From a virus: a DNA stretch of 64,000 nt. The stretch is taken from the IMG/VR virus record IMGVR_UViG_3300036792_000176, positions 1-64,000 of that record; one strand, written 5' to 3'. The notes beneath the pieces are model-generated. The model had not been told where the DNA came from. It searched no databases and was given only the letters and a program-made list of their open reading frames with translations. How positions within the stretch are numbered: position 1 is the first letter of the stretch; each line of letters starts with the position of its first letter. Position numbers and translations under genes: made by a program. Positions 14,100 to 54,312 of the stretch are shown here, one piece after another.

Positions 14100-14672
14100 T
14101 TACCGGGTTCTGGCGAAATATCCCGGTCCTTTTAGGGTCGGGACAGAATTGCCGTTGCTCTGGGACAGGCCGAACAGCGTCTCGGCATTGTCGGCGGTGT
14201 ACGAAGGCTGGTACCACACCTGCATCTTGGTTCCGTCGTTCACGCTGTCGTTGACCCGGTCCATGAACATGCCGTTCAAGTCGGCTAGCCCGTAGCCCTG
14301 CGAAGACGGAAAGTTTTCAGCCTGGAACGAATTCCAGATCTGGCTGGCATCACCGTTGCACGTCCAGATCTGAAGCCGGAGTCCGTCCGAGGTCCCGGTC
14401 CCGTCGACGCACTTGCCGTTTTGCATGCGGATCTCGTATCCGCCGGTCACGGGTATCGCCACGAACTCCTGGTTGGCGTTATCCAGGCATGACCACTCCT
14501 GGAGCTGTGTACCGTCATCAGTGCTGTTGAATGGGTCGTCGATACAGTGATCGGTGTTCTGCGAGAAGTAGATGGAGGAGTAGTTAGTCGCATACGCCGG
14601 GCTAGCCAGGACGATCGGGGCAGCTAGAGCGGCCACGCCGATGAACGACATGCAGGCACTTATCTTCTTCAC
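14100..14672 (-). CDS. Secreted ricin-type beta-trefoil lectin
   Basis: GTG at 14672 follows AAGGAG with ideal spacing, giving 190 residues. A signal peptide (VKKISACMSFIGVAALAAP, cleavage after SPAYA) is followed by one beta-trefoil with the (QxW)3 signature: LQEW, LQIW and MQVW, each near Cys or Gly turns. Such domains bind sugars such as galactose or xylan. A secreted lectin is odd inside a phage head operon; it may alter the mycelium surface or phage attachment. A second lectin is at 50155. Confidence 0.8.
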   Translation of the reverse strand: MKKISACMSFIGVAALAAPIVLASPAYATNYSSIYFSQNTDHCIDDPFNSTDDGTQLQEWSCLDNANQEFVAIPVTGGYEIRMQNGKCVDGTGTSDGLRLQIWTCNGDASQIWNSFQAENFPSSQGYGLADLNGMFMDRVNDSVNDGTKMQVWYQPSYTADNAETLFGLSQSNGNSVPTLKGPGYFARTR

Positions 14673-14724
14673 TGGATCTCCTTTTCTATGCCGAGTATCG
14701 ATTTGTGCCATGGCCTCAGACGGC

Positions 14725-15183
14725 TCATGGCTCGAACTGCATGACACTAAGGTCGCCGACCGTGACCTTGTCTGTTCGCCTGTACATCTGCGATCCAGTA
14801 ACCTCGGAGTCGTCGTTATAGGTTGGCAGCATCATCGTCCCGCCAACCCAGTGCGACCTGGGGATAGCCATCTGGGTGCCATCCCAGTATCCGCCACTCA
14901 GGACGATATTGACACTCTCGCTCTTCGGATCGTCTATGCGGTGGTCTCGCTCTTCTATGCCCGCTAGTGCCCGCTCTTCCATCAGGTTTGGGCCAGCCCA
15001 CTGAGGAAAGTGCCCTTCTTCGAATACGAGCGTCAAGGTGCATGTTTTGCTGAGCCTTTTGGGCGCTGATGGATCAGGGTCTTCCATCACTCCCCGTGAT
15101 ACGCTTATGGTCGTGATCTTATCGTCGTCGAATACCAGTGACATACCGTCTGCTATCTTCGGGGTGATACGTATCTCGGTCAT
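14725..15183 (-). CDS. Hypothetical protein (152 aa)
   Basis: Start at 15183 overlaps the upstream stop (TGATG). Strand-rich N-terminus (TEIRITPKIADGMSLVFDDD, ITTISVSRG), then VLSGGYWDGTQMAIPRSHWV. It ends in a strand (DKVTVGDLSVMQFEP). No family recognised. Part of a three-gene leftward unit starting at 16394. Confidence 0.55.
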   Translation of the reverse strand: MTEIRITPKIADGMSLVFDDDKITTISVSRGVMEDPDPSAPKRLSKTCTLTLVFEEGHFPQWAGPNLMEERALAGIEERDHRIDDPKSESVNIVLSGGYWDGTQMAIPRSHWVGGTMMLPTYNDDSEVTGSQMYRRTDKVTVGDLSVMQFEP

Positions 15184-16846: not shown

Positions 16847-17106
16847 CCAATTTCGCCTCCCGCCGCTGGCGGTAAAAGCCCACTCGTGGAAACGGGTGGG
16901 CTTTGCCATTGGCTCGCATCGCCATTTTCGTCGCTGATGTTACTGGCGGCAGGAATGCAGTTTGCTGGAAAGTGATTTTTACATCTCCAGTAGAAATAAG
17001 TATCCAGGAGCGCTAGCGCTGTTCTTCCAGACAATATGGTAACCATAATACTTGTATACCATGATGTTAACCACGGTTAACGACTGGTCAGGGTTAGGAC
17101 AGATCC

Positions 17107-17225
17107 CTTGGTAGCCATAATGTTAACCAACCTACCGAGTCTGTGTCAGCGATACCTTGGTAGCCATAATGGTAGCGAAACTACCGAGTCTCTGTCGGGC
17201 CGAACACTTGGTAGCCAAGGTAACC
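17107..17225 (+). repeat. ~50-bp direct repeats in the central non-coding region
   Basis: The block 16847-17280 has no gene. It contains three copies starting CTTGGTAGCC at 17107, 17156 and 17207, each followed by ATAAT or AAGG and, in the first two, CTACCGAGTCT. Related pieces (GGTAACCATAAT, GTTAACCACGGTTAAC) lie at 17039-17080. Period is 49-51 bp. Such arrays can be binding sites for a replication, partition (ParB) or regulatory protein. Confidence 0.65.
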
Positions 17226-17297: not shown

Positions 17298-17326
17298 TAG
17301 CGCCTAGGGGCCCTAGGCGCTATACT
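17298..17326 (+). promoter_or_regulatory. Predicted promoter with palindromic spacer
   Basis: TAGCGC (17298-17303), 17 bp, TATACT (17321-17326). The spacer is the centre of a 21-bp palindrome, GCGCCTAGGG-G-CCCTAGGCGC (17300-17320), which overlaps the -35 and abuts the -10, so a bound protein or cruciform would block it. The motif CCTAGGCGCTATACTTA recurs at the promoter at 21180. Confidence 0.65.
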
Positions 17327-17760
17327 TAAGCTATAGCCCGCCGGTAAGGGGGCGGTAGGGCCCCCGGGCCCGGGGCCCCGCGCCTAGCGCGCGGGGGCCC
17401 GGTCCGGCCCGGGGGCCCGGGGGTAAAGGCCGGTAGGCGCGTACCCCTAGCTAAAAATGAAAGGCCCGGGTACTGCCGGGTAGGGCTTGGTTGCCTACGC
17501 TACTTGAGAACTGAATTTATGACGCCCGTGCTGACGGGCCGGAGTACGGAACCGCGTAGGGAGAGGACTCTACGTAGGCCGTTAATGCCGGGGGACGCCT
17601 AGGTAAACGACTAGGACCCTACCTTTGTATAACCGTAAGTGGGAGTGTTGTGGCGCTCCCGCCCCTACGGTTACCGTGAGGCTAGGCCGATGAATATGGT
17701 AACGGGCTAGCCTACGCGGGTACCGTACGGTACGAAAAACCCTTCAAAAGGAGAATTACA
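17327..17760 (+). other. Long GC-rich structured leader or non-coding RNA region
   Basis: No gene is seen for 430 bp. From the 17321 promoter, transcripts would carry a long leader made of C/G runs (17350-17425), small hairpins (ACGCCCGTGCTGACGGGC at 17522-17539) and a CCGTA...TACGG hairpin at ~17624-17661. A palindrome GTACCGTACGGTAC is at 17720-17733. The first gene (17761) has its own AAGGAG. The region could be an RNA regulator or host-RNA decoy; nothing identifies it. Confidence 0.45.
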
Positions 17761-18156
17761 ATGGGTACCACCGCTCCGAAGACCTCCCCCGCCCCTGCTG
17801 ACGCCCCGGCCCCCGACCTGACGGTCGTCCCGCCGCTGTCCGACGCTGAGGCTGCGCGCGCGGCGCTGAAGGCCGAGCTCGCCGCCGAGATTGAGGCGGA
17901 CCTGCGGGCGAAGCTGACCGCTGAGCTGACCCCGCGCTCCCCGGCCGTGAAGCGTGAGGCCAAAAAGGCGCTCGCCTCGGCGATGATCGCGGCGATGGGT
18001 GACGCCCTGAAGGCGCTGCCCGCCGACCACCCCGCTAACCTGGTCGGCTCGCCCGCTGAGCGCGACCAGATCGTCGCCCAGTGGGTTCACCACTTCCCGG
18101 CCGACCGTGAGACCTGGACCGACCACCTGCCCGCCCCGGTTCGCGCGGGCTGGTAA
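17761..18156 (+). CDS. Short paralog of the 25940 protein (131 aa)
   Basis: Ala/Pro-rich N-terminus with a helical EAARAALKAELAAEIEADLR, then a conserved C-terminal domain. VKREAKKALASAMIAAMGDA is followed by QWVHHFPADRETWTDHLPAP and RAGW. The same block ends the larger protein at 25940-26932 (QWIHHFPANRDEWINHLPRP). The gene follows AAAAGGAG and leads the block of tiny genes. Family not recognised; possibly an abundant early protein. Confidence 0.7.
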   Translation: MGTTAPKTSPAPADAPAPDLTVVPPLSDAEAARAALKAELAAEIEADLRAKLTAELTPRSPAVKREAKKALASAMIAAMGDALKALPADHPANLVGSPAERDQIVAQWVHHFPADRETWTDHLPAPVRAGW

Positions 18157-18234
18157 CTACCGGCGAGTCTGCCTGATCGCCGCCCCCGCCATATGGCGGA
18201 CGGGGGCGGCGGTCGGGTAGGTTACCACGGTAGG

Positions 18235-18263
18235 TAGCCTAAGTACAAAATGTAGGGTATGCT
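18235..18263 (+). promoter_or_regulatory. Predicted promoter inside intergenic element 1
   Basis: TAGCCT (18235-18240), 17 bp, TATGCT (18258-18263). The -35 is the right arm of the repeated hairpin element (18221-18238). The gene it serves starts 37 bp downstream. Confidence 0.5.
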
Positions 18264-18300
18264 TGAACTGTAAGCTCGCCCCCGTCCGAAAGGTAAGAAA

Positions 18301-18507
18301 ATGTACTCCTCGCTTAACTCCGCCGCCGCTGACGCCGCTGAGATTGCGGTTGACGCCGTGATCGTGTCGGCTGACGCCGAGGGCCTGCTCTCCGACTCCG
18401 CTGTCGTCGGGTACCGCGCCTGGTACGCGGTGTACCTCGCTACCGGTAAGTTCGGCGTTGCTAACGCCGCTAGCTACTGGGCTCCCCGCTACTCCGCTGC
18501 TGAGTAG
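18301..18507 (+). CDS. Tiny hypothetical protein (68 aa), duplicated
   Basis: ATG follows AAAGGTAAGAAA. The central part (GYRAWYAVYLATGKFGVANA, then APRYS) aligns with the next gene (GLRIYAAIYLALFKYGQFVA, then AEQYS), so the two are paralogs. Small helical fold. Function unknown. Confidence 0.6.
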   Translation: MYSSLNSAAADAAEIAVDAVIVSADAEGLLSDSAVVGYRAWYAVYLATGKFGVANAASYWAPRYSAAE

Positions 18508-18599
18508 CCTCCCGGCTAACCTGCCTGATCTCCCCGCCCCGTGCGGGGAGGTTGGGTAGGCTACCACGGTAGGTAGCTGTGAAATGAAAGGGGCCCACA

Positions 18600-18854
18600 A
18601 TGCCCAGTACCGAGATGAGCCCCATCGACGTAGCCGAGCAGGTTGGCGGCGACGTGATGACGGCGAGCTACAATGAGGGTCTCGACTGCCAGTCCGACCT
18701 GGTCGGGCTGCGGATCTACGCCGCCATCTACCTGGCCCTGTTCAAGTACGGCCAGTTCGTGGCGGAGTACTACGCCGAGCAGTACTCGGTGAACGACGAG
18801 CCCTACTTCACTGACGCCCATGAGGGTGACAGCGCGTTCGGCCCCCTGAGCTAG
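18600..18854 (+). CDS. Tiny hypothetical protein (84 aa), paralog of previous
   Basis: Shares the Y-A-x-YLA-x-x-K-Y/F-G core with the 68-residue neighbour and adds an acidic tail (NDEPYFTDAHEGDSAFG). Preceded by element 2 and AAAGG. Function unknown. Confidence 0.6.
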   Translation: MPSTEMSPIDVAEQVGGDVMTASYNEGLDCQSDLVGLRIYAAIYLALFKYGQFVAEYYAEQYSVNDEPYFTDAHEGDSAFGPLS

Positions 18855-18930
18855 CGGCTAGCTTCCCCGGTGTCCGGGCTACCCGGACACTCGGGGTGGC
18901 TACCACGGTAGGTAGTCAGGAGAGGAAGAA

Positions 18931-19056
18931 ATGCCAAGTGACATGACTGAACTGACCCTCAGGCAGAAGGCCAGGGCGCTGGTCGCCTTCGGCCTGGCCG
19001 ACGACATCAACGAGGCATACGCCCAGCTGGAGGACATGGGCGAGGACGACGACTAG
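18931..19056 (+). CDS. Very small protein (41 aa)
   Basis: ATG at 18931 follows AGGAGAGGAAGAA and element 3. The predicted peptide MPSDMTELTLRQKARALVAF continues GLADDINEAYAQLEDMGEDDD: a helix with an acidic end. It has its own strong ribosome site and flanking elements like its neighbours, which argues for a real gene despite its size. Confidence 0.6.
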   Translation: MPSDMTELTLRQKARALVAFGLADDINEAYAQLEDMGEDDD

Positions 19057-19138
19057 CGGCCTGCTTTCCCGGGGCTCGGAGCAATCCGAGCCCACGGGAT
19101 GGCTACCCCGATGGTAGTCAGGAGATGGAGAGTAAGAC

Positions 19139-19474
19139 ATGAAGTGCGGATACTGCTCTGATCAAGCGGTGGCCATCCTGACGGCAACGTACATCCGGCA
19201 CCCCAAGCCCACGCCCGTCTGCCAGACGGACCTGGACCGGCTCAACAAGCCCGACAACTTCGACAAGATGCCGACGGTCACGGGCATCGAGCGGGTCTGG
19301 TGCGAGAACCCCGCGCACTCCTCCGATCCGCACTACCCGACCATGACCGGTCGCTACACGGACGCGGACTCCGCTGCCAAGGACCCCAACGAGTGCCACT
19401 GGCCGCACCTGGTGCCGCCGGTCGCCGACCTCCCGGACAGGCCGGAGGGGTACTACCACAGCCCGCTTGGCTAG
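19139..19474 (+). CDS. Cys/His-containing small protein (111 aa)
   Basis: Begins MKCGYCSDQAVAIL (CxxC), with later CQTDL, WCENPAHSSDPHY and ECHWPHL. This Cys/His spacing could bind zinc. Preceded by AGGAGATGGAG and element 4. Unknown role; one of the tiny early genes. Confidence 0.6.
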   Translation: MKCGYCSDQAVAILTATYIRHPKPTPVCQTDLDRLNKPDNFDKMPTVTGIERVWCENPAHSSDPHYPTMTGRYTDADSAAKDPNECHWPHLVPPVADLPDRPEGYYHSPLG

Positions 19475-19547
19475 CGGTCCAGCTTCGGTCCCGCCCCTCT
19501 GGGGCGGTGGCCGTGGCTACCCCGATGGTAGTCAAGGAGAGGAAGAG

Positions 19548-19763
19548 ATGAACACCGAGAAGATCGAGCTCCGCATGACTGCCCTGGAGGCTGACTCGGT
19601 AGCTTACGTCATCATGAGTGCCCTCGGTCGAGTCACGATGCTCGACAGGGAGCGCGTCGACGCCACGGCGGCTGCGAACGAGCTGTTCAGGCAGCTGGGG
19701 TACGGGCACCACACCACACTTCACGGCGAGCGCGTCGAGGACAAGGTCAAGGTCAAGTCCTAG
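19548..19763 (+). CDS. Tiny hypothetical protein (71 aa)
   Basis: ATG at 19548 follows AAGGAGAGGAAGAG and element 5. Helical, with ALEADSVAYVIMSALGRV and an HH pair; ends in a basic KVKVKS. An upstream in-frame start lies inside element 5 and was not chosen. Confidence 0.6.
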   Translation: MNTEKIELRMTALEADSVAYVIMSALGRVTMLDRERVDATAAANELFRQLGYGHHTTLHGERVEDKVKVKS

Positions 19764-19848
19764 CGGCGAGCTGCCCTGGCCACCCGCCCCGTGCGGGTGA
19801 CCGGGGGAGCTACCACGGTAGGTAGCTGAGCAGGAAGGACAACCCCTT

Positions 19849-20061
19849 ATGCGAGTCCAGACCAAGACCGGCCTGCGTGGGACGGTCATCGACACGAGGG
19901 ATGGCGGGGACAAGAGCCTCGTCCAGTTCGACAACGGAACCACCTGGTGGTGGTTCACCGACTGCCTGGAGGCATTCCACGCCTTCGGCATGTGCTGCGT
20001 CTGCCGTGTGCGCACGGCCATGCGCGGCAGCGGGTACTGCCCTACATGTAGGAGGATCTGA
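19849..20061 (+). CDS. Small protein with C-terminal zinc ribbon (70 aa)
   Basis: N-terminal strands (TGLRGTVIDTRDGGDKSLVQF) suggest an SH3-like turn. The C-terminus CCVCRVRTAMRGSGYCPTC gives a CxxC...CxxC ribbon. Stop and next start overlap (TGATG). Possibly nucleic-acid binding; not proven. Confidence 0.6.
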   Translation: MRVQTKTGLRGTVIDTRDGGDKSLVQFDNGTTWWWFTDCLEAFHAFGMCCVCRVRTAMRGSGYCPTCRRI

Positions 20062-20360
20062 TGCAGGTCAAGTTCGAGAACCTCACCCCCACACAGGTCG
20101 CCATGCATATGGCGAACAACTGGAGCGACCCCATGGCAACCGACAGATTCTTCGTCATGGACAAGCTCCCGCTCTGGCCGGGCGATATGGCCCAGATCGG
20201 CCCGTTCACAGTCATCTGCGAGGACACCGAGCTCGACGATGCCAGGTTCACGGTGACCTGGGATGCCGAGCCGTGTATCCACCCCGGCGTGTTCGCCAAC
20301 TCCCAGCCCACAACTCACTGCTGGGCGTGCGACACCGACGTCCCCCGAGAGCTGCTGTAG
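20061..20360 (+). CDS. Hypothetical protein (99 aa)
   Basis: Coupled to the previous gene by TGATG with AGGAGG just upstream. Beta-rich centre (GPFTVICEDTELDDARFTVT) and a late CWACD. Function unknown. A CCCGAGCCG/CGGCTCGGG hairpin and element 7 follow it. Confidence 0.58.
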   Translation: MQVKFENLTPTQVAMHMANNWSDPMATDRFFVMDKLPLWPGDMAQIGPFTVICEDTELDDARFTVTWDAEPCIHPGVFANSQPTTHCWACDTDVPRELL

Positions 20361-20453
20361 GACAACCCTCCTGATACCCGAGCCGACCTTCCCTGCGGCT
20401 CGGGTAGCGGGAAGGCTGCCCATCAGGGTAGCTGTGTCGAGAGAGGACACACA

Positions 20454-20714
20454 ATGCTAGAAGAGCTCCTCAAGGAAGCCAGGACCTGGCTGCTCGACTG
20501 CGGCATGAAGCAGTTCGGGCAGTCCAAGAACGACAAGTTCGTGGCCCTGGCGATCCACACCTACTACGACGGCCGCTGGCCCGCGTTCGTCGCGGCCGAC
20601 CCCGCCATGGACGAGTACACGGCACGGCTGGAGATGGACGCGCGCTGGGGCTGCGCCACGGCCGAGAAGTTCCTGCCCGTTAAGGAGGACGAAGATGCAC
20701 TTCCCAGCACCTGA
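20454..20714 (+). CDS. Hypothetical protein (86 aa)
   Basis: Starts after GAGAGGACACAC. Mostly helical (LEELLKEARTWLLDCGMKQF), with FVALAIHTYYDGRWPAFVA in the centre, loosely like the YLA motif of the 18.3-18.9 kb pair. The stop overlaps the next gene by 20 bp. Confidence 0.58.
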   Translation: MLEELLKEARTWLLDCGMKQFGQSKNDKFVALAIHTYYDGRWPAFVAADPAMDEYTARLEMDARWGCATAEKFLPVKEDEDALPST

Positions 20715-21156: not shown

Positions 21157-21185
21157 TAGCGGTGCGCCTACCTAGGCGCTATACT
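21157..21185 (+). promoter_or_regulatory. Predicted promoter
   Basis: TAGCGG (21157-21162), 17 bp, TATACT (21180-21185). The 17 bases CCTAGGCGCTATACTTA are identical to those at the 17321 promoter, so the two may share a regulator. The gene at 21224 starts 39 bp after the -10. Confidence 0.65.
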
Positions 21186-21223
21186 TAGGGTAGGCGTACC
21201 GCCCCCGGGAAAGGACAGCAAGA

Positions 21224-21541: not shown

Positions 21542-21551
21542 CGGGTTCTAT

Positions 21552-21577
21552 CCTGACGGTTGCTGAGTACCGTCAGG
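21552..21577 (+). terminator. Hairpin CCTGACGG/CCGTCAGG
   Basis: 8-bp perfect stem with a 10-base loop just after the 21541 stop. No T-run follows, so it may only attenuate or process the transcript. Confidence 0.5.
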
Positions 21578-21609
21578 GTGGTGTCCGACAGGACAAGAAG
21601 GAGGAAGAA

Positions 21610-25798: not shown

Positions 25799-25939
25799 GT
25801 TCATATCGGCCTCCCCCGCCGGTAAGCGGTACGGCGGGGGAAGCTGAGCCAACGGGAAACCGACAGGACACCCCGGCCCCGACAGACCAAACCGCAACAC
25901 CCCAGCCCCACAATGGGCACCAAGAGGAAGAAGAACAAA

Positions 25940-26932
25940 ATGTCCACTGTCATCGAGTGCGAGGGCGCAGGCCAGGCCTGGTCCTACCTCCTCCAGGACT
26001 CCAACGGCAACTCCGTCGACCCCCGGACCGACAACGACACCAAGACCAAGACCACCACCCAGCTCCCCGGCTGCCCGGTCTGCCTGCTCACGGCCAAGGA
26101 CCTCAAGATCAAGGTCAGCCGCAAGAACGGCAAGCTCTCCCCCATCCACATCCCCGAGCACATGGTCGAGGTCCCAGGCGACGAGCTGCTGTTCATGCTC
26201 ATCAACGGCGAGTTCGATGTCCACGTCAAGGGCTGCAACCGGATCAAGGCCCAGCTCAAGAAGAGCGACTACGAGCGCCCCGGCACCGTCCTGGCCACCG
26301 ACCCCCACGACCTGGTCACGCAGCTGTGGGATGACATCATCCCCGAGGCCTGGGTTCAGGAAGAGGACCCGGAGGGCACCCCCGAGGTGCGCGACCCCGA
26401 GACCGACGAGCTGCTCAGCCCGATCAACCCCACCGACGAGTGGCTCGAGAAGCACAACTACTACAGCGCCACCGGCATCCACACCTGCGTCGCCAAGCTC
26501 GGCGGCGAGTGGGCCAACGGCACCGGCGCCAAGGGCAAGGCCAAGTCCAACGGCGGCGCGTCCCGTCAGGCCAAGCGGGACCTGGCGCTGGTCCTCGTCG
26601 AGGCCATGGCGCAGGCGATCAAGGAGCTCCAGGACGACCCGGCCAACGACCCGAACAAGATCATCCCCACCCTGGGATACGAGGAGGCTCGCCAGGTCGT
26701 CGCTCAGTGGATCCACCACTTCCCCGCCAACCGCGACGAGTGGATCAACCACCTCCCCCGCCCCAACCGCTCCGACTGGATCACCGAGTCGGAGGCTGCC
26801 GGCACCCAGACCAGCGACGAGACGGACGACGACACGAACAGCGACGCCGACGCCACCGACGAGGACGAGCTGGACGAGAACCAGAACGACGAGGACACGG
26901 ACCAGGAGGACGAGGACGACGCCGAGGAGTGA
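25940..26932 (+). CDS. Acidic-tailed protein sharing a domain with 17761 (330 aa)
   Basis: ATG at 25940 chosen because AGAGGAAG precedes it; an ATG 27 bp upstream has no ribosome site. N-terminal half with GCPVCLLTAKDLKIKV and ELLFMLINGEFDVHVKGCNR. Residues ~205-290 repeat the domain of the 17761 protein, ending QWIHHFPANRDEWINHLPRP. The last ~45 residues are almost all D/E/N/T. Codon use is extremely C-rich, as for a strongly expressed gene. Followed by a strong terminator. Family not recognised. Confidence 0.7.
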   Translation: MSTVIECEGAGQAWSYLLQDSNGNSVDPRTDNDTKTKTTTQLPGCPVCLLTAKDLKIKVSRKNGKLSPIHIPEHMVEVPGDELLFMLINGEFDVHVKGCNRIKAQLKKSDYERPGTVLATDPHDLVTQLWDDIIPEAWVQEEDPEGTPEVRDPETDELLSPINPTDEWLEKHNYYSATGIHTCVAKLGGEWANGTGAKGKAKSNGGASRQAKRDLALVLVEAMAQAIKELQDDPANDPNKIIPTLGYEEARQVVAQWIHHFPANRDEWINHLPRPNRSDWITESEAAGTQTSDETDDDTNSDADATDEDELDENQNDEDTDQEDEDDAEE

Positions 26933-50154: not shown

Positions 50155-51093
50155 ATGCGTACGACAATCCGCCGAGCACTGCTCGGCATCAGCGCTGCGG
50201 CGCTGTGCGCGGTTGGCCTGGCTATCCCGGCCGTCGCGAATGCTTCTGCGAGTGTTGCGGCTACGCCGCTCAGTGTCGCTCTGTACCACAACGGTGACAG
50301 CAAGGCGACATGGGACGCCAGCGGCAACCCGGTTCTTACTGCCGGGACGGACGCCGGAACGTCCGCCCAGGTGCAGATCAAGAATGTGCACGGAACGCAG
50401 CTGCCCACCACCGAGCCGTCGTTCACCGCGTCGGCGTCCGGCGGTGGTGACCCGCGCTGGGTGATCGAGCTGCACAACGGCCAGTACCTGTTCGGCTACC
50501 CGTACCAGCCTGCGGCCACGCGCTGGTCGGTCAACCCGGGTGGCAACCAGAACACTGACTACGCAACAGCTGTCGCGGCTGCCGAGGCTGGCGGGTCTGA
50601 TAACTACATCACCGCCGCGTTCATCGTGGACGATCAGGGCGGCAACAGCCTGGGAGCGGTCACCCTGACCGGCGTCCAGTACAACGGGGAGACCCTGGCT
50701 GCTCCTGTCGTGTTCAGCGGCGGGATCGTGAACAAGAACAGCGGCAAGTGCCTGGACGTGACCGGGGCGTTCGGGACGTTTGCGGCCGGACAGGGCCTGC
50801 AGCAGTGGACGTGCGGCGCGGCGGGCGGCGAGGACCAGCACTTCACGCTGACCACTGAGCCGGACAACTCGTCGTACCTAACCATTGGCGGCCTGTACGT
50901 CACCACGAGCACCCAAGGTGCGCAGATGACCCTGGTGACGGCCCCGACCACAATGGTCAAGTCGGGCCCGTACTACAAGTGGACCTCACTGGTCATGGAT
51001 GTGCGGGCGCGCTCGCTCTCCAACGGCGCGGTCGTTCAGGGCTACGCCCAGCAGGCGACTAACAACAACAACCAGCAGTGGTCGCTCCCGTAA
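50155..51093 (+). CDS. Secreted protein with C-terminal ricin-type lectin domain
   Basis: ATG after GAGAAGGACAAGCAAGT. A Sec signal peptide (MRTTIRRALLGISAAALCAV, cleavage near AVANASA) is followed by a beta-sandwich-like domain (residues ~35-190; WVIELHNGQYLFGYPYQPAA) and a beta-trefoil half (~195-312) with GLQQWTC and NNNQQWSLP, the QxW repeats, and SGKCLDVTGAFG. It is the second secreted lectin in this phage and is isolated between terminators, like a moron gene. Ligand unknown. Confidence 0.78.
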   Translation: MRTTIRRALLGISAAALCAVGLAIPAVANASASVAATPLSVALYHNGDSKATWDASGNPVLTAGTDAGTSAQVQIKNVHGTQLPTTEPSFTASASGGGDPRWVIELHNGQYLFGYPYQPAATRWSVNPGGNQNTDYATAVAAAEAGGSDNYITAAFIVDDQGGNSLGAVTLTGVQYNGETLAAPVVFSGGIVNKNSGKCLDVTGAFGTFAAGQGLQQWTCGAAGGEDQHFTLTTEPDNSSYLTIGGLYVTTSTQGAQMTLVTAPTTMVKSGPYYKWTSLVMDVRARSLSNGAVVQGYAQQATNNNNQQWSLP

Positions 51094-52376: not shown

Positions 52377-52450
52377 GGCGGGGTGGAGCAGTTTGGTAGC
52401 TCGCCGGACTCATAATCCGTAGGTCGTCAGTTCGAATCTGGCCCCCGCTA
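52377..52450 (+). tRNA. tRNA with CAT anticodon (Met or Ile2)
   Basis: Acceptor GGCGGGG/CCCCGCT (one G-U), D-stem GAGC/GCTC, anticodon loop CTCATAA (anticodon 52411-52413), T-arm GTCAG-TTCGAAT-CTGGC, discriminator A; no encoded CCA. The first anticodon-stem pair is a mismatch (C-T). CAT may read Met, or Ile if modified by TilS. Confidence 0.85.
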
Positions 52451-52487
52451 CGTGCATCCGCACAATTCCACCCGAGATTGGAATAGA

Positions 52488-53917: not shown

Positions 53918-54123
53918 TGCCAGTTCCAGAGCGCGTGACGGCATCCGTCCGCCCAGAGATATTCGAGGACCTCCGCAAGAGTGTAGAGAGGAATGGGGTC
54001 TCGCAGACGTATATCATAAACCAGGCTATTAAATTGTACGAGTTTGTTGACTCCGAGATCGCTGCTGGTGCAGACATGATACTGCGCCGAGATGGTGTAG
54101 AGAAGCTTATAGAACTGTTCTAG
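53917..54123 (+). CDS. Ribbon-helix-helix DNA-binding protein (68 aa)
   Basis: TGATG coupling with the MazG-like gene. RVTASVRPEIFEDLRKSVER then GVSQTYIINQAIKLYEFVDS is the Arc/MetJ strand-helix-helix fold. Coupling of an RHH gene and an enzyme gene could mean autoregulation. The stop touches the first base of the next tRNA. Confidence 0.65.
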   Translation: MPVPERVTASVRPEIFEDLRKSVERNGVSQTYIINQAIKLYEFVDSEIAAGADMILRRDGVEKLIELF

Positions 54124-54196
54124 GGGTGTTAGCTCAGCCGGTCAGAGCAGCGGACTCATAATCCGCCGGTCGTGGGTTCGAGCCCCACACACCCCA
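54123..54196 (+). tRNA. tRNA with CAT anticodon (Met or Ile2), second
   Basis: Acceptor GGGGTGT/ACACCCC, D-stem GCTC/GAGC, anticodon arm GCGGA-CTCATAA-TCCGC (anticodon 54157-54159), T-arm GTGGG-TTCGAGC-CCCAC, discriminator A; all stems perfect, no CCA. Two CAT tRNAs in one cluster suggest one is Met and one Ile (AUA). Confidence 0.92.
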
Positions 54197-54312
54197 CAGG
54201 GAAGGAGGAAGCCGTATGTGAGCACCTAGATCACACGCCGTGCCTTGCGTGTCGTGCACCACAGCGACGGCAGCGGCATCCTTCTTCCCGCAAGGTTGCC
54301 ACGGGATCCCAC

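Follow-up and report, generated by a model that had tools for sequence, protein, structure and literature searches.

In an 88-kb virus record of IMG/VR (IMGVR_UViG_3300036792_000176), seven gaps that separate small early genes each contain an element of two consecutive hairpins in a fixed order. The stop codon of the upstream gene is followed by a GC-rich hairpin unique to each gap (hp1), then by a small conserved hairpin (hp2, consensus GGCUACC-loop-GGUAGYC) and by the ribosome site of the downstream gene. Compensatory changes in hp1 relative to the nearest relative of this phage indicate that the hairpins are RNA structures under selection. The explanation that we tentatively put first, at somewhat less than even chances, is that these intercistronic RNA structures partition one early operon transcript into mRNA-like pieces. 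The early operons of phages of high-GC bacteria hold many tiny genes each, and how these are expressed separately is poorly known. A defined, repeated RNA element with support from compensatory changes, and with related layouts elsewhere, lets termination and processing be tested against each other.

The phage and its early region

The window analysed in this study comprises positions 1 to 64,000 of the virus record (G000). Minus-strand structural genes extend to about 16.4 kb. From 17761 onwards, the early and replication genes run rightward; a Prim-Pol/AAA protein, an SNF2-type helicase, a PD-(D/E)XK nuclease, a ParB-like protein and ThyX are encoded further along this region. The virus is a soil phage, likely with an actinobacterial host, because its terminase is closest to those of Thermobifida phages (57% identity) and Streptomyces phages (50%). 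Its nearest relative is a 94.6-kb viral contig (G001; terminase 91%). When a genome collection was scanned with the terminase, the only result was a distant Chloroflexi MAG contig, which gave no host, and BLASTN of the element region against named phages gave no match. Two secreted-looking proteins (window 14100-14747 and 50155-51093) possess, according to their translations, ricin-type lectin-like repeats (GKCVDGTG...LQIWTC), which are unusual in phages. Furthermore, two tRNA genes with the anticodon CAT, called as Met, are located at 52377-52451 and 54123-54197.

The early genes around the elements and the promoter-like sites are as follows.

17312..17328, plus strand: promoter-like repeat CCTAGGCGCTATACTTA upstream of the block (resemblance only)
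17761..18156, plus strand: first early gene (131 aa), upstream of the first element
18301..18507, plus strand: tiny gene (68 aa)
18600..18854, plus strand: tiny gene (84 aa)
18931..19056, plus strand: tiny gene (41 aa)
19139..19474, plus strand: tiny gene (111 aa)
19548..19763, plus strand: tiny gene (71 aa)
19849..20061, plus strand: tiny gene (70 aa), overlapping the next gene
20061..20360, plus strand: tiny gene (99 aa)
20454..20714, plus strand: gene following the seventh element (86 aa)
21171..21187, plus strand: second exact copy of CCTAGGCGCTATACTTA, downstream of the block (resemblance only)

The exact 17-nt repeat at 17312 and 21171 has a TATACT core, and its two copies are probably a phage early promoter. 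As judged from this sequence resemblance to promoters, the seven elements are presumed to lie within one transcription unit. Positions 17097-17217, upstream of this early promoter-like site, contain a pair of direct repeats of 46 bp (87% alike) as well as a third, partial copy of CTTGGTAGCCA; the copies are spaced 49-51 bp apart and look like operators or an origin. The C-terminal segment QWIHHFPANRDEW is common to the first early protein (gene at 17761, segment at 18066-18137) and a 339-aa protein encoded at 25913 (segment at 26692-26764), which suggests a duplicated domain.

Layout of the two-hairpin elements

The elements, e1 to e7 and a further one outside the block (e8), were located at the following positions.

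18157-18300, 18508-18599, 18855-18930, 19057-19138, 19475-19548, 19764-19848, 20361-20453, plus strand: the seven element-bearing gaps
18169..18220, plus strand: e1 hp1, GC-rich hairpin of about 20 bp
18220..18239, plus strand: e1 hp2, GGUUACC-ACGGUA-GGUAGCC
18520..18559, plus strand: e2 hp1
18560..18577, plus strand: e2 hp2
18865..18896, plus strand: e3 hp1, inner helix of 9 bp and lower helix of 5 bp with a 1-nt bulge between them on the 3' arm
18898..18917, plus strand: e3 hp2
19067..19099, plus strand: e4 hp1, bulge as in e3
19101..19119, plus strand: e4 hp2, CCGAU loop
19486..19513, plus strand: e5 hp1
19515..19533, plus strand: e5 hp2, CCGAU loop
19774..19806, plus strand: e6 hp1, compensatory changes relative to two G001 copies
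19808..19827, plus strand: e6 hp2
20369..20412, plus strand: e7 hp1, two compensatory pairs relative to its G001 counterpart
20414..20433, plus strand: e7 hp2, divergent copy
21548..21581, plus strand: e8 hp1, two compensatory pairs relative to G001
21582..21595, plus strand: e8 hp2, UGUCC-GACA-GGACA, another hp2 sequence

A preliminary description of this DNA had placed the block at 18221-20432. It was right about the layout and wrong about its extent and about covariation of loops and stems: a unique GC-rich hairpin, a GCTACC/GGTAGY-type hairpin and a ribosome site follow each other in 7/7 gaps, with low folding z-scores, but position 18221 lies inside hp2 of e1 and thus omits its hp1, and the true start is 18157. 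All seven of the copies described were found, the seventh (20369-20433) being divergent (hp2 GCUGCCC-AUCA-GGGUAGC) and reaching an E value of only 0.22 with the covariance model described below. The statement that the elements separate consecutive tiny genes holds for seven gaps but not for the genes at 19849 and 20061, which overlap without an element. The eighth element (21548-21595) shows the same layout outside the range first described.

A scan for tandem hairpins followed by a ribosome site detected 6 sites in the block in comparison to 0.02 in shuffled sequences (n=300); in the whole window, 7 sites were detected in comparison to 0.28 in shuffles, one of them outside the block. None was detected on the minus strand. 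Folding z-scores ranged from -1.9 to -5.6 for whole gaps and from -2.5 to -6.7 for gaps trimmed to the elements (control 75-nt windows: mean -0.18, sd 1.48). The hp2 motif does not occur elsewhere in the 88-kb record. When the elements were compared to the covariance models of Rfam 15, the single match below E 1 was a plant microRNA model (E 0.51, far under its gathering score).

Evidence for selection on RNA structure

The hp1 hairpins act as RNA, because 96/96 base-pair cells are kept in comparison to G001, with 8 compensatory pairs that become apparent only in this comparison. Each alignment was assembled manually from two or three sequences, with the register picked from predicted folds, so that these small counts are to be read as leaning towards structure. 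In e6 and its two G001 copies, 48/48 cells are paired and 4 compensatory pairs occur; the outer pairs are invariant, the mismatches recur and the inner stem differs in all three. The orthologous gap of e8 (26/26 cells) and e7 (22/22 cells) contribute 2 compensatory pairs each. In slid controls of these alignments, ≤59% of the cells pair and ≤1 double change appears. Mismatches and bulges also recur at the same places in hp1 of e3 to e5, as they do in e6 and its two G001 copies.

For hp2, 91.5% of the cells are paired (7-47% in slid controls), and its stem changes mostly preserve pairing, G-U pairs included. Its covariation is weak, since the observed score was reached by 44/500 shuffles. Seven copies, five of this phage and two of G001, were used for a covariance model, which recovered the held-out e1 at E 6e-10. 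Taken together, hp2 is kept in sequence and hp1 in shape only. The preliminary description had seen selection on RNA shape in a co-variation of loop and stem bases between ACGGTA and CCGATG types. This does not hold, as the stems are identical in the copy at 18898 (ACGGTA loop) and those at 19101 and 19515 (CCGAT loop). Its idea of a selected RNA shape survives by way of hp1: the check for compensatory changes, whose absence would have spoken against it, revealed the 8 pairs mentioned above. Its interpretation is therefore supported in this part and not in the loop types that it named.

These data also bear on the question of whether hp2 acts as DNA. Repeats in short gaps before genes, all in one orientation, might be double-stranded DNA operators, like stoperators or the inverted repeats of the ESAS type and of cluster EG. 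The palindrome CTACC-N2-GGTAG, present in four hp2 copies, is similar in form to GATCAACC-N2-GGTTGATC of cluster EG (PMC7302621), and GGTAGC words are also found in the promoter region (17.1-17.3 kb). We consider this the least probable of the explanations discussed here: neither spacing nor sequence is constant, the half-sites being 2 bp apart in four copies, 5 bp in two and at another value in e7, the stem changes mostly keep RNA pairing, G-U included, and the compensatory changes in hp1 are of the RNA type. The reading of hp2 as a promoter was rejected, as hp2 is always accompanied by hp1 and lies at variable distances from the start codon.

As RNA, the hairpins might serve as passive spacers that keep the ribosomes of neighbouring genes apart and the ribosome site unpaired. 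Their location between stop codon and ribosome site and the preservation of structure while the sequence changes would agree with this, which is nonetheless very improbable, since it leaves the sequence conservation of hp2 and the recurring mismatches of hp1 unexplained and elsewhere in this genome gaps and overlaps do without elements. The conserved sequence of hp2 close to the ribosome site, beside an hp1 conserved in shape only, would suit a binding site at which an RNA-binding protein of phage or host origin regulates the translation of all the tiny genes jointly, hp1 acting as insulator between them. This is improbable as well: hp2 does not overlap the ribosome site, its loops are of two types, its seventh copy diverges, and none of the early proteins tested was recognised as RNA-binding.

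Occurrence of the elements in other phages

Among the records searched, the element sequence family is confined to this phage and G001. An exact-motif scan of viral contigs with one hp2 type returned 19 stretches, with the layout in G001 alone, and that with the other hp2 type returned none; protein searches with three conserved early genes identified G001 only. The covariance-model search proposed in the preliminary description was run over 23 other loci and 11 records, and nothing significant was obtained beyond these two phages.

Three further terminase relatives (G002, G003 and G004) have hairpins of different sequence between tiny early genes, with folding z-scores from -1.5 to -5.3. Those of G003 have the form TGAGTCACCGGG-core-CCGGGCAACTCAGCCC; those of G004 (CTAGG-core-CCGGGCNNCCTAGCCC) occur in four copies and nowhere else in its record, and G002 has tandem hairpins of unrelated sequence. 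They represent a recurring layout and not a demonstrated family with common descent.

The strand at the stop codon of the upstream gene is able to pair with hp2 in several relatives, and for G003 and G004 nearly the same energy is predicted for the two resulting folds. The element might therefore be a translation-sensitive switch, in which the stop-proximal strand either pairs with part of hp2 to give one long hairpin or is covered by the terminating ribosome, leaving hp1 and hp2. Processing or termination between two genes would then report translation of the upstream gene. We regard this as quite improbable; the complementarity of the stop-proximal strand to hp2 gave individual p values of 0.07-0.6, with no element significant alone.

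Three minor observations were made on other gaps. In further early gaps of G004 (locus L037, minus strand, about 13400, 12560 and 11430), which alternate with the hairpin gaps, a sequence of the GGCTAGGGG-TAGCCTTACTAG type recurs and has a -10-like box near the start codon; these sites are perhaps leaderless promoters. In a 105-kb viral contig in which no kinship was seen (L082, 6198-6262), one stop-codon-proximal hairpin is followed by GGGCAACTCAGCCCA, as in the G003 form, and this single match may be due to convergence. Streptomyces phage Dagobah (L085, 41556-46745, minus strand) has long hairpins in several tiny-gene gaps with the upstream stop codon in the base. It was not counted as a further case, as most of its folding scores were unremarkable.

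Proposed partition of the transcript or leaky termination

Neither a U-tract terminator nor a sigma-70-type promoter was found on the plus strand of the block. The 8 nt that follow hp2 contain 0-3 U, and the RNA-DNA hybrids downstream of either hairpin have a stability within the random range (energies calculated with nearest-neighbour values). Of the features of a canonical intrinsic terminator, the GC-rich hairpin is thus present, and the U-tract and the weak hybrid are absent. Ordinary terminators are unlikely, because there is no U-tract and the hybrids are as stable as random ones. This bears out the earlier view that the elements are hardly full stops, and agrees with processing or with a leaky formation of 3' ends. 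If seven strong terminators followed each other with no new promoter, the later genes would be silenced.

According to the explanation preferred here, hp1, located directly behind each stop codon, would stabilise and protect the 3' end of the upstream gene's message, and hp2, which closely precedes the next ribosome site, would form a leader hairpin that protects the 5' end of the downstream one. A host endonuclease would cut at or between the two hairpins and separate the pieces, the first candidate being RNase III acting on the imperfect 14-20-bp helix of hp1. We infer the cleavage, the enzyme, the stabilising roles and the formation of one mRNA per gene. The mismatches and bulges at constant places in hp1 resemble imperfect processing helices, and the layouts of other sequence in G002, G003 and G004 count for partition as well. 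Several hp1 helices are below the typical length of an RNase III substrate, which counts against it. No RNase III or RNase E gene was detectable in the five phage records searched, so that cleavage would depend on the host.

The RNase III sites of phage T7 likewise lie between early genes that follow each other on one transcript, and they too are long hairpins with imperfect pairing. They are proven cleavage sites with conserved features of their own, whereas here cleavage is proposed and a second, conserved hairpin is added. The imperfect long hairpin is found in the present elements too, within a transcript whose unity is deduced from the absence of promoter-like sites.

The main rival explanation is that the elements are leaky terminators without U-tract, at which hp1, or hp1 and hp2 together, would halt a fraction of the polymerase, so that expression steps down until the promoter-like site at about 21.18 kb. 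This is possible, if on balance unlikely. When the early gaps of actinophage phiC31 were folded, they gave long, GC-rich, U-less hairpins between small early genes, just as seen here. Several phiC31 gaps continue with a recurring sequence, which we take to be a promoter or operator; here, in contrast, the next feature is another hairpin, with a repeated sequence, and the gaps yielded no promoter-like site. By the title of the 1995 paper of Ingham, Hunter and Smith, U-less hairpins reportedly terminate transcription in the phiC31 early region, a precedent which, by analogy, would count against partition. By that of Czyz et al. 2014, mycobacterial RNA polymerase is said to need a U-tract, which would count against leaky termination. 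The former work is cited in PMC8355165 and PMC5335608, the latter in PMC5335608.

In Streptomyces clavuligerus, structured 3' ends without U-tract outnumber U-rich ones (353 vs 182; PMC8269248), and two-hairpin clusters after stop codons were proposed as terminators in high-GC bacteria (PMC8355165), both of which favour leaky termination. Against it stand the missing U-tract and the ordinary hybrid stability after both hairpins, the very high leakiness that seven terminators in series would require, and the sequence conservation of hp2 beside the ribosome site, for which a terminator would have no use. Sequence alone cannot separate processing from leaky termination, and we prefer partition by processing.

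Comparison to repeats of other actinophages

The elements seem to belong to a kind already known, the intercistronic hairpins of actinophage early operons; the paired form with a repeated hp2 was not found described in a literature search with limited coverage of subscription papers. In Microbacterium phages of clusters EC, EG and EI, too, small intergenic gaps contain short repeats that closely precede start codons. These are single short motifs for which no unique companion hairpin is described (PMC7302621). The SAS and ESAS of cluster K mycobacteriophages are likewise repeated elements, with inverted repeats, just upstream of the starts of non-structural genes. The invariable 13 bp of SAS, GGGATAGGAGCCC, are located at the start codon (PMC3203893) and are absent from all seven leaders. 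For ESAS, the authors judged RNA pairing unlikely, as departures from the consensus generally did not support pairing (PMC3203893). In contrast to these mycobacteriophage repeats, the departures in hp1 keep pairing.
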